Shown here: piece after piece, positions 23,362 through 26,298 of the stretch
Position numbering within the stretch: position 1 is the stretch's first letter
Layout: each line of letters opens with the position of its first letter
Assembly: GCA_902765395.1 (NCBI GenBank)
Contig: CACWZP010000016.1
Location: 50,205 to 114,204, forward strand
DNA from: an uncultured Eubacteriales bacterium
GTDB taxonomy: Bacteria; Bacillota; Clostridia; Christensenellales; Aristaeellaceae
Length of the DNA: 64,000 nt
Reading direction: 5' to 3'
Program-made: the position numbers and the translations under genes
Notes under the pieces: model-generated
What the model was told of the DNA's origin: nothing
The model's database searches: none
What the model saw: the letters and a program-made list of their open reading frames with translations, nothing else

Positions 23362-24666
23362 TCACTTCACCGCCTCGAACGCCGCGTCCAGCGCCGCGAT
23401 CAGGTCCTCGGCCTTCTCGATGCCGATGGACAGGCGGATGGTGTTGGGCTTGATGCCCTGCTCCAGCAGCTCCACCTCGGTCAGCTGGCTGTGGGTGGTG
23501 CTGGCGGGATGGATCACCAGGCTCTTCACGTCGGCCACGTTGGCCAGCAGGCTGAAGATGGGCAGGTGGTCGATGAACGCCTTTGCCGTCCCGGCATCGC
23601 CCTTCACCTCGAATGTGAAGATGCTACCGCCGCCGCCCGGCAGGTACTTGGCGTACAGGTCGTGGCTGGGCTCGCCGGGGATGGAGGGATGGTGCACCGC
23701 CTCCACCTGGGGGTGCTTCGACAGGTAGTCCACGATCCTGATGGCATTCTCGGCGTGGCGCTCCACCCGAAGGGAAAGCGTCTCCAGGCCCTGGAGGAAT
23801 ATGAAGGCGTGGAAGGGCGAGAGGGTGGCGCCGGTGTCGCGCAGCAGTATGGCGCGGATGTAGGTGACGAAGGCCGCCGGGCCCACCGCGTCGGCAAAGC
23901 TGACGCCGTGATAGCTGGGGTTCGGCTCGGCGATCCAGGGGTACTTCCCGCCCGCCTTCCAGTCGAACCGGCCCGCCTCCACGATCACGCCGCCGATGGC
24001 CGTACCGTGGCCGCCGATGAACTTGGTGGCGCTGTGCACCACGATGTCCGCGCCCCAGTCCAGCGGACGCACCAGGTAGGGCGTGGCAAAGGTGCTGTCC
24101 ACCACCAGTGGGATGCCGTGGGCGTGGGCCACCTTCGCGACGGCCTCGATGTCGATCAGGTTCGAGTTCGGGTTGCCCAGGGTCTCGATGAAGACGGCCT
24201 TGGTCCTGTCGGTGATGGCGGCCTCGAAGCTGCCCGGCACGTCCGGGTCCACGAAGGTGGTGGTGATGCCGGTGGTCAGCGGCAGCGTGTGGGCCAGCAG
24301 GTTGTAGGTGCCGCCGTAGATGGTCTTGGAGGCCACGATGTGCTCCCCCGCCCTGGCCAGCGCCTGGAAGGTGTAGCTGATGGCCGCCGCGCCGGATGCC
24401 ACCGCCAGCGCCGCCGAACCGTTCTCAAGCGCGGCGATGCGCCTTTCGAAGATGTCGTTGGTGGGGTTGGTCAGGCGGCCGTAGATGTTGCCGGCGTCCC
24501 GCAGGCCGAAGCGGTCGGCGGCGTGCTGGCTGTTGTGGAACACGAATGAAGTCGAGGCGTAGATCGGCACGGCGCGGGCGTCGGTGACGGGATCGGCGGT
24601 CTCCTGGCCGATGTGCAGCTGCTTGGTCTCAAAGGCCCAGTTGGCGGAATTGCGGATATCAGACAT
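23362..24666 (-). CDS. metY: O-acetylhomoserine sulfhydrylase (Cys/Met metabolism PLP enzyme)
   Basis: This 434-residue gamma-family PLP enzyme has TLGNPNSNLIDIEAVA, VVDSTFATPYLVRPLDWGAD and the PLP lysine in VHSATKFIGGHG. The length and insertions (GGKYPWIAEPNPSYHG) fit MetY/CysD rather than the shorter MetB/MetC. It would make homocysteine from O-acetylhomoserine and sulfide. AGGAGG lies 8 nt before the ATG at 24666. The mRNA leader contains a 17-codon ORF and a hairpin that may regulate it. Confidence 0.9.
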   Translation of the reverse strand: MSDIRNSANWAFETKQLHIGQETADPVTDARAVPIYASTSFVFHNSQHAADRFGLRDAGNIYGRLTNPTNDIFERRIAALENGSAALAVASGAAAISYTFQALARAGEHIVASKTIYGGTYNLLAHTLPLTTGITTTFVDPDVPGSFEAAITDRTKAVFIETLGNPNSNLIDIEAVAKVAHAHGIPLVVDSTFATPYLVRPLDWGADIVVHSATKFIGGHGTAIGGVIVEAGRFDWKAGGKYPWIAEPNPSYHGVSFADAVGPAAFVTYIRAILLRDTGATLSPFHAFIFLQGLETLSLRVERHAENAIRIVDYLSKHPQVEAVHHPSIPGEPSHDLYAKYLPGGGGSIFTFEVKGDAGTAKAFIDHLPIFSLLANVADVKSLVIHPASTTHSQLTEVELLEQGIKPNTIRLSIGIEKAEDLIAALDAAFEAVK

Positions 24667-24687
24667 GGTGTTGCCTCCTGTTATATC

Positions 24688-24741
24688 AATCGAATGTGGT
24701 TCTTGCTTGCGCCTGGGGATCAAGCCCGGTCACATTCGGTT
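24688..24741 (-). promoter_or_regulatory. Leader hairpin overlapping the end of the metY upstream ORF
   Basis: In the transcript AACCGAATGTG (24741-24731) can pair with CACATTCGATT (24698-24688), 11 positions with one mismatch. The 5' arm covers the last codons and part of the stop codon of the small ORF, so a ribosome stopped there would melt the stem. No T-run follows, so control of translation or RNA stability is more likely than termination. Confidence 0.5.
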
Positions 24742-24783
24742 GACGCTCAGCAGCGCGGCCACCCGATAGCTCTTGTTCGTCAT
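24730..24783 (-). CDS. Candidate 17-residue leader peptide upstream of metY
   Basis: A small ORF encodes MTNKSYRVAALLSVNRM and has AAAGGA about 9 nt before its ATG. It lies between the promoter at 24818-24847 and the metY start, with 63 nt from its stop to the metY ATG. It ends with Asn-Arg-Met and has no Cys. Its last codons sit in the stem at 24731-24741. I do not recognise the peptide. Position and ribosome binding site suggest a regulatory leader peptide for sulfur metabolism. Translation is not proven. Confidence 0.5.
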   Translation of the reverse strand: MTNKSYRVAALLSVNRM

Positions 24784-24817
24784 GGTCGGTTTTTCCTTTC
24801 CTCACGTCGGTGATACA

Positions 24818-24847
24818 ATCATACATGATTCATGGGTTATTGTCCAA
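24818..24847 (-). promoter_or_regulatory. Promoter of the metY leader
   Basis: On the minus strand TTGGAC (24842-24847) and TATGAT (24818-24823) are 18 bp apart, placing transcription start about 25 nt before the leader ORF. Confidence 0.55.
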
Positions 24848-24907
24848 TACTCTGTTTGTATCATATGTTATAGGTTATTCCTATATATACAAAATGGCCC
24901 GCGACTG

Positions 24908-24916
24908 TGCTATAAT
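24908..24916 (+). promoter_or_regulatory. Extended -10 promoter for the 24950 gene
   Basis: TGCTATAAT is an extended -10 element 34 nt before the start codon. No good -35 is visible. Confidence 0.5.
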
Positions 24917-24949
24917 GGCATCATCCATCATCTTGAAGGGAGCATCCCC

Positions 24950-25702
24950 ATGGCGGACTGGATCATGAAGGGGCTGGACTGGAGCGACCCGCGGCGGCTG
25001 AAGAGCCCGGCGGAGCTGGAGGACTGGATCGAGGAAGTGGGCTTCGCGCCTTACTTTGCCAGCGACATTCCCGGCTTTTCGGCGGAGGAGATGGTCTCGC
25101 CGGACTTCTGGTGGACGGGCGACCCTGCCCAGGACCCCTGGGAGTGGCGGGAGGCCGTGGCGGCGAACCACCGCGTGGCCTACGGCAAGTTCTTTGCGGG
25201 CCGCGCCGGGTTCATCAGCCGCCAATGGCTGCCCGTATTCGCCAACGCCCGCCGGGACGGCTTCGACTTCGACGGCAAGTGGCAGAGCGGCGCAGCCAGC
25301 CGCCGGGAGAAGGCCATCATGGAGCACTTCATGGACGTGGAATCCGAGGACGAGCCGGTGTTCAACGGGGCAGGCATACTGTCCACGGAGCTGAAGAAGC
25401 TGGCCGGGTTCGGCAAGGGCGGCGAGAAGAACTATCCCGGCATACTCACGGGGCTGCAAATGCAGTTATACCTGGTGATCGGGGGCTTCCGCCGTCGGGA
25501 GAACAAGCGGGGCGAGCCCTACGGCATGGCGGTCTCCGTGATGCAGGCGCCGGAGAGCATTTGGGGCTACGAGGCCCTGTCCGCCGCCTACGACGAGGCG
25601 CCCGCCGATTCCTGGCAGCGCATCTTTGACCACGTGAAGGCCCTGTTCCCCGCGGACGACGAGGCCGTTATCCGTTTGATCGGCAGGAGGCCGGCATCAT
25701 GA
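24950..25702 (+). CDS. AlkZ-related winged-helix-type protein
   Basis: This 250-residue soluble protein contains GKFFAGRAGFISRQWLPVF, then ARRDGFDFD, and later EKNYPGILTGLQMQLYLV. I associate these segments with proteins annotated as AlkZ-related (a DNA glycosylase-like winged-helix family). The catalytic features of true AlkZ are not obvious here, so DNA-repair activity is an inference. AGGGAG precedes the ATG; an upstream in-frame extension to 24773 is rejected because it crosses the promoter. The gene overlaps the next by 4 nt (ATGA). Confidence 0.55.
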   Translation: MADWIMKGLDWSDPRRLKSPAELEDWIEEVGFAPYFASDIPGFSAEEMVSPDFWWTGDPAQDPWEWREAVAANHRVAYGKFFAGRAGFISRQWLPVFANARRDGFDFDGKWQSGAASRREKAIMEHFMDVESEDEPVFNGAGILSTELKKLAGFGKGGEKNYPGILTGLQMQLYLVIGGFRRRENKRGEPYGMAVSVMQAPESIWGYEALSAAYDEAPADSWQRIFDHVKALFPADDEAVIRLIGRRPAS

Positions 25703-26298
25703 ACGATCGCGAATGGGACAAGCGGCTGAGGATCAAGACCATCGGCCGGGAGGACGAATCCAACCCCAACTACGCCCCCTACGAGCCCACGCCATACGAA
25801 GTGCTTAAGCGGGTGGCCGAGAGCGGATACATCCGCCGCAGGCAGCACGTGCTGGACTACGGCTGCGGCAAGGGCCGGGTAGCCTTCTTCCTGGCGGACG
25901 CGGTGGGCTGCCGGGCGACGGGCATCGACCAGTCCCAGAAGCTGATCGACCTGGCCGTGGAAAACCGCCGCACGGCCCGCAGTGGCAGCCGGGTGCGGCT
26001 GGGGCGCGTGCTGGCCGAACAGTACCTGCCCGGTGAGGAGGACGTATTCTTTTTCTTCAACCCCTTCTCCGCCAAGGTGTTCGAGGGCGTGCTGCGCAAC
26101 ATCGCCGTCGCCTGGTTCCACAACCCCCGGCCCATGACGCTTCTCATGTACTATCCATCGGAGGACTACGTGCGCGCGCTGGAGGCCGCGGAGGGCTTCA
26201 CGCGGCTTTCCCCCATCGACTGCCGCGACCTGTTCGGCGGCAAAAACGAGCGCGAGCGGGTGGAGGTGTGGAAGTATGAGGGTGCCGGCGCGCAATGA
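25699..26298 (+). CDS. Class I SAM-dependent methyltransferase
   Basis: The 199-residue protein has SAM motif I as V-L-D-Y-G-C-G-K-G-R and the acidic residue after beta2 in T-G-I-D-Q-S. Downstream is a VFFFFNPFS segment in the place of motif IV. The N-terminus (NPNYAPYEPTPYEVLKRV) is conserved in small clostridial methyltransferases of unknown substrate. It is translationally coupled to the AlkZ-related gene, so the two may act together. Confidence 0.75.
   Translation: MNDREWDKRLRIKTIGREDESNPNYAPYEPTPYEVLKRVAESGYIRRRQHVLDYGCGKGRVAFFLADAVGCRATGIDQSQKLIDLAVENRRTARSGSRVRLGRVLAEQYLPGEEDVFFFFNPFSAKVFEGVLRNIAVAWFHNPRPMTLLMYYPSEDYVRALEAAEGFTRLSPIDCRDLFGGKNERERVEVWKYEGAGAQ

Follow-up and report, generated by a model that had tools for sequence, protein, structure and literature searches.

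A putative leader-peptide family ending in a CGA-ATG codon pair precedes metY and other sulfur genes in Clostridia

In Bacillota, SAM-I riboswitches and T-boxes control the methionine genes considered here. Ligand-sensing arrest peptides of bacteria, TnaC among them, carry conserved residues at a fixed distance from a stop or pause codon. To our knowledge, no described bacterial arrest peptide ends in Arg-Met or guards methionine genes. Short upstream open reading frames (uORFs) that respond to cysteine were reportedly described in mycobacteria and other Actinobacteria by Canestrari et al. in 2020. In the plant enzyme CGS1, codon identity plays, as far as we know, no part in the MTO1 region. 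Excerpts of one report describe an arrest near the MTO1 stretch of Arabidopsis CGS1 in response to AdoMet (PMC8137854). Among open-licence papers, as far as their accessible text goes, no paper was found on a leader of the kind described below. An earlier, sequence-only reading of this DNA had known of no described leader with this peptide, and nothing in print was found in that literature to set against it.

The window, which is the whole stretch of 64,000 nucleotides that was analysed, comes from an uncultured gut bacterium and contains a metY gene whose product is a clear O-acetylhomoserine sulfhydrylase. On the same strand lies a 17-codon ORF; its start is 117 nt upstream of the metY start, and its stop is 63 nt before it (Table 1). 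The ORF seen in the sequence-only reading was confirmed, together with a likely ribosome binding site of its own. The uORF contains one internal Met and zero Cys codons, and within the genome of the window metY alone carries such a uORF. The region upstream of metY is shared with a divergent AlkZ-related gene (PF24741; 24951-25702, plus strand), and a probable methyltransferase gene (25699-26298, plus strand) is located 3' of the latter.

Table 1. Features of the metY leader in the window, and tRNAs found in the leaders of relatives
Feature	Position	Strand	Remarks
Leader ORF (uORF) MTNKSYRVAALLSVNRM	24733..24783	(-)	stop TGA 24730-24732; same kind of uORF at 44/81 close metY (among matches listed, plus window)
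CGA-ATG (Arg16-Met17), invariant codon pair, then TGA	24733..24738	(-)	
AGGAAAGG, likely ribosome binding site of uORF	24794..24801	(-)	11 nt before ATG, by eye
AGGAGG, SD of metY	24674..24679	(-)	
metY, O-acetylhomoserine aminocarboxypropyltransferase (homocysteine synthase)	23362..24666	(-)	TIGR01326, E 4e-179
Hairpin 5' arm GUCAACCGAAUGUG	24731..24744	(-)	spans codons Val14 to part of stop
Hairpin 3' arm CACAUUCGAUUGAU	24685..24698	(-)	just upstream of metY SD; common to closest relatives only
Promoter-like site TGGACA-17-TATGAT	24818..24846	(-)	
Inverted repeat TATAGG-5-CCTATA, probable operator	24869..24885	(-)	by eye
tRNA-Cys-like tRNA, CAT anticodon	L018:2826-2898, L151:1537-1611, L153:1427-1499	L153 minus	ARAGORN

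At least 80 close metY loci (the matches listed; MetY identity 77-95%) and the window gave 81 upstream regions. Among these matches and the window, CGAATG lies within 300 nt upstream of metY in 44 of 81, compared with a mean of 9.0 and a maximum of 14 in 100 shuffles, and is missing from the other 37; CGAATGTG is the commonest upstream 8-mer, present in 35/81 of the same regions. In 44/44 cases the hexamer falls as CGA-ATG into the frame of an SD-led ORF, and the other two frames offer such an ORF in only 4 and 1. One locus, L069, has no stop before metY and was omitted from most uORF counts. The residues that precede the codon pair are conserved as well: Val at -6 (28/44), Leu at -5 (28/44), Leu at -4 (31/44), Ser at -3 (31/44), and Asn at -1 (26/44). 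The codon that follows ATG is Cys in 24 leaders, TGA in 12, and another codon in 8. Four leaders (L063, L070, L071, and L077) retain only Arg-Met. When the 37 metY genes without CGAATG were searched without bias for a uORF with Arg-Met at its end, the sole find was a possible uORF in L022, which ends in Arg(CGG)-Met. The 17-codon ORF is thus real, and it is a member of a large leader-peptide family; looking for a conserved ORF end in related metY leaders, as had been suggested earlier, revealed the type A peptide, [AS]VLLSx[ND]RM(C), which includes that of the window. Two nucleotide patterns were also tried and set aside. The matches of a broad pattern outside the family, in 396 genomes of the order, resembled noise when compared with a reversed control, and the pattern was unused for counts. 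The CGAATGTGYCGATGY pattern gave 7 matches in 391 genomes and 0 in the reversed control; six were in genes or at a contig end, and one (L246) was a metY uORF.

A class-wide search of 216 genomes found metY in 109 genomes at 118 places, of which 110 were taken and 109 examined (8 places were partial copies, contig ends, or the weakest matches, and L315 was too short). Five of these metY repeat the first sample (L252 and L253 duplicate the genes of L029 and L039; L261, L262, and L264 match L076, L078, and L080), so the class-wide sample is not wholly independent. CGAATG was present within 300 nt upstream in 40/109, compared with a mean of 8.3 and a maximum of 16 in 50 shuffles. It lies inside an in-frame short SD-led ORF in 33 of the 40 cases; in L282, L288, and L300 its frame is open but no SD was recognised, and four occurrences look like chance. 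The commonest upstream 8-mer is again CGAATGTG (27). A second recurrent peptide, type B, L[VL]RxN[FYW]RxGRM(C), emerges in this sample beside type A.

The codons of these peptides are informative. In 23 type B sequences, Arg at -7 uses five codons, Asn at -5 two, Arg at -3 five, and Gly at -1 four, and the Arg of the final pair uses CGA only; the members were chosen by residue, so that the residue invariance is partly by choice, and the codon spread is not. When leaders were chosen by upstream residues and the final two codons were ignored, CGA-ATG came next in 22/22 type B and 19/19 type A leaders (these counts exclude one spurious pattern match, L008, which is not a leader). CGA makes up 1.8% of 567 Arg codons in metY genes; in long open frames of the same loci, its share is 6.7% of those Arg codons that are followed by neither Met nor Cys. 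At three internal Arg-Met pairs (L142, L281, and L293), Arg is encoded by AGA or CGT. The uORF therefore has its own SD, a conserved frame, and a coding sequence that appears to be selected as a peptide, as a leader peptide should. Conserved residues stand at a fixed distance and tolerate synonymous change, as in arrest peptides, save at the last Arg. What is conserved is the peptide end together with the CGA-ATG codon pair, and the latter had not been singled out before. A wider preference for CGA before Cys was considered as a rule and dropped: Arg before Cys was CGA in 20/22 cases in the first sample, versus 24/137 before other residues, and in only 2/9 class-wide. CGATGT or CGATGC as a second in-frame unit was likewise in frame in 20/20 in the first sample and was unrepeated class-wide, and no rule is claimed.

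Six invariant bases, mostly followed by T, and a single 8-mer that ranks first upstream of metY in each of the two samples might also be expected if a protein or small RNA recognised CGAAUG(UG) as an RNA or DNA element and the surrounding ORF were incidental. The in-frame SD-led ORF at 44/44 sites, the confinement of drift at conserved residues to synonymous codons, and the tandem in-frame CGA-ATG copies in the metQ leaders L187, L188, and L192 argue against such an element, which we consider improbable.

A profile built from the sequences of 43 type A-like leaders was run on 150 genomes of the family, some of which were training genomes. The best 20 matches (E up to 0.0112, the level below which chance matches begin) preceded genes of metY (15), MetQ-family lipoproteins (2), a LivK-like protein (1), an OppA-like binding protein (1), and an SDF symporter (1). 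Class-wide, this profile matched in just 3/391 genomes, so type A is local. The type B profile, run on 331 genomes, gave 35 matches at E up to 7e-6, followed by a gap to 0.0025. They precede 31 metY genes (four of them read by eye), two MetQ genes, one gene for a sulfate-binding protein, and one for an SsuA/NMT1-like protein that falls under the curated cut-off. All 13 strong matches outside the training set contain CGAATG (13/13) and lie before metY (9), MetQ (2), the sulfate-binding protein, and the SsuA/NMT1-like protein. Among the MetQ-like genes of motif-bearing genomes, such a uORF precedes 8/28, and in several of these cases the CGA-ATG pair occurs twice. Some MetQ-family lipoproteins (L244, G000:C11:89836-90600; L215-L238; L368) have their halves swapped, profile positions 98-234 coming before 1-95; this circular permutation is usual in the genus of the window. 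In a quick tree of 111 MetY proteins, leader absence needs 20 changes, at least 8 of them on well-supported branches, which implies frequent gains or losses, and leaders are present in both deep halves. Within the genomes drawn, to which these statements on distribution apply, conservation reaches far past the genus level, and the earlier suggestion of a translated leader ORF tied to methionine or sulfur supply is supported. Such uORFs are too short for gene finders, and the regulon is thus invisible in annotations.

Transcription signals form part of the same upstream region. The promoter proposed earlier is there as a promoter-like site, which is weak evidence by itself, as shuffled sequence yields 0.6 such sites on average. 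Among the 8-mers found upstream of the 81 metY genes, TATTGGAC ranks second (28/81, among the matches listed plus the window). The start of transcription predicted from this site would lie just past it, upstream of 24783; a start downstream of that position, which would have undermined the leader, is therefore not indicated. In the genome of the window, metQ has a similar inverted repeat and a GTATTGGAC box upstream and has no uORF, which suggests that control of transcription forms a layer separate from the uORF. No intrinsic terminator was found in window positions 24600-25000. The Rfam scan of the window found one tRNA and no riboswitch, in agreement with the earlier statement that no SAM riboswitch is seen. 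At gathering scores, no SAM riboswitch, T-box, or other Rfam cis element was found at the window and 80 metY loci, and a permissive scan of 15 loci (E up to 10) found nothing at the uORFs. SAM-I riboswitches occur in 23/40 leader-bearing genomes, including that of the window; the leader thus coexists with them. The genome of the window has two, L242 (G000:C26), before a gene that reads as metK, and L243 (G000:C1). Sequences that look by eye like SAM-I riboswitches are located upstream of metY in L335 and L337, where the uORF is missing. A T-box-like match at cysS (L164) was set aside as probable chance.

The sequence-only reading had placed control in an 11-position hairpin that locks the end of the ORF and is opened by ribosome occupancy, freeing metY translation. 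The hairpin exists and is slightly longer, with 13/14 positions paired; pairing of its ORF-end arm with the intercistronic stretch surpasses that of shuffles (duplex z -2.38), and the 3' arm (ATTCGATTGA) is common, by eye, to five close leaders only, those of the window, L147, L002/L149, L006, and L020. As a working part it was not supported. Folding of the entire 171-nt window leader is no stronger than that of shuffles (z -0.66), and over 42 leaders (L004, with a short gap, and L069 left out) pairing between the ORF end and the intercistronic stretch is at chance level (mean z -0.08, s.e.m. 0.14). By eye, no compensating changes are found in the stem among the five leaders, and two leaders of the same genus (L118 and L146) are without the 3' arm. 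Conservation in relatives thus holds for the ORF; that of the stem is limited to the closest ones, with no covariation. Modelled accessibility of the metY SD hardly shifts, being 0.29 free and 0.34 with a stalled ribosome in the window, and 0.49 free and 0.50 with a ribosome footprint at CGA-AUG as a mean of 42 leaders (L057, with no SD found, and L069 left out). Over the 42 leaders, the models do not predict an SD that is sequestered and then released by stalling, and a hairpin lock of this kind is very unlikely. A different short hairpin, GCGG..CCGC with varying loops, was seen by eye directly before AGGAGG in L033, L037, L042, L045, L046, L047, L055, L056, and L039.

With no general SD lock and no terminator in the window, the output would be neither an SD lock nor, here, an intrinsic terminator; our guess is a step via Rho or RNA decay. 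The same two negative results, together with variable leader lengths, would suit a uORF that has no sensing role and serves constant expression by shielding the RNA from Rho or RNases. The fixed CGA-ATG, the conserved residues, and the confinement to sulfur genes would then be left unexplained, and we give this explanation little credence.

We consider it somewhat probable (roughly 0.55), judging from sequence comparison, that the uORF encodes a leader peptide with a regulatory role in a sulfur-amino-acid regulon, in which ribosome pausing at CGA-AUG reports the supply of methionine or cysteine. A ribosome on the uORF would pause at or just past Arg(CGA)-Met(AUG), where the next codon in most relatives is Cys or stop; alternatively, the pause may occur one codon on, when AUG occupies the P site and the A site holds Cys or stop. 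The pause would be set by the codon pair and probably by the residues immediately upstream, and would be lengthened by shortage of charged Met-tRNA (or Cys-tRNA). The paused ribosome may then raise expression of metY, and of metQ and sulfur transporters elsewhere; most likely, it would leave the next 60-120 nt of RNA covered or coupled, which would spare expression from Rho or RNases. Several observations count against a pausing leader: for a classical attenuator, a lone Met codon makes a thin sensor; Arg is AGA or CGT in three internal Arg-Met pairs and CGG in L022; and 37/81 of the listed metY have no motif.

The conserved residues 1 to 9 before the pair, with their codon drift, are what a nascent-chain arrest peptide requires, and the regulated enzyme is functionally related to cystathionine gamma-synthase. 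The peptide may accordingly act within the ribosome as a sensor of a small molecule, namely SAM, methionine, homocysteine, or cysteine, much as plant CGS1 responds to SAM and TnaC to tryptophan, and tRNA charging would not be the signal; the AdoMet-responsive arrest near MTO1, as given in the excerpts of PMC8137854, is a plant precedent. From a purely peptide-level sensor, however, an invariant last Arg codon is unexpected; moreover, types A and B differ, and the four leaders with Arg-Met alone lack the residues in question. Such sensing is possible, although we doubt it.

For the pausing leader, a tentative mechanism, in our view less probable than the reading itself, would begin with CGA read by inosine wobble: the P-site tRNA would make decoding of the next codon (AUG, often then Cys or stop) unusually sensitive to the supply of charged tRNA, helped by tunnel-facing residues. 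In yeast, the available portion of PMC6301793 reports that CGA in the P site, through inosine wobble, destabilises decoding of the next codon; in B. subtilis, according to part of PMC10454642, four consecutive CGA codons do not impede lacZ. CGA therefore need not be slow in Bacillota, and its sensitising of the next codon is put forward as a hypothesis. In some lineages, the leader adds a further element. A co-oriented tRNA stands one codon after CGA-ATG in three relatives, before metY in L018 and L151 and before a LivK-like gene in L153. ARAGORN named it tRNA-Met (CAT); its body matches tRNA-Cys of L036/L141 at 75-83% identity and the two tRNA-Met of L020 at 55-69%, and the tRNA of L151 retains T73 and CCA. 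A tRNA-Cys body with a Met (CAU) anticodon may link the two sulfur amino acids through a single RNA. Between uORF and gene, the 81 + 110 upstream regions and 53 other loci scanned gave no further call of a co-oriented tRNA. The L036 leader resembles, by eye, a decayed copy of the leader tRNA (uncalled by cmscan at E up to 10).

Among known systems, the classical trp/his attenuator differs in its tandem regulatory codons, which are absent here (one Met in the window, Met and optional Cys in relatives), and in its terminator and antiterminator, neither of which was found in window positions 24600-25000. SAM-I and T-box elements are missing from the window metY and from the 80 metY loci scanned, though the genome of the window has its two SAM-I copies. 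The cysteine-responsive uORFs of mycobacteria and other Actinobacteria are among the closest known systems: as far as the accessible part of PMC1262725 describes them, they are also short ORFs with sulfur-amino-acid codons near the stop, located before sulfur genes with no obvious terminator. From the same partial source, the mycobacterial uORFs have runs of Cys codons and are called leaderless, whereas the Clostridia leaders have an SD and a constant Arg(CGA)-Met, with Cys optional; the uORF of the window, with an SD and without Cys, is not a polycysteine uORF. The genes behind the Clostridia leaders also differ in that they include metY and metQ. Arabidopsis CGS1 shares peptide-encoded control of a homocysteine/methionine enzyme and a short conserved stretch with Arg, Ser, and Gly as key sites, as excerpts of PMC8137854 and PMC6284425 present it. 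The MTO1 stretch, unlike the Clostridia leader, lies inside the coding region of the enzyme itself, in a eukaryote, and no homology is claimed. The likeness to TnaC, taken from partial sources, lies in conserved residues at a fixed distance from the stop or pause codon. If the pausing reading holds, these uORFs would make up a system of leader peptides for the supply of methionine and sulfur in a class, Clostridia, for which textbooks give SAM riboswitches and T-boxes as the answer. Unlike in TnaC-type arrest peptides, the Arg codon itself is fixed in the Clostridia leaders: evolution has held one synonymous codon of six beside neighbours that drift freely.
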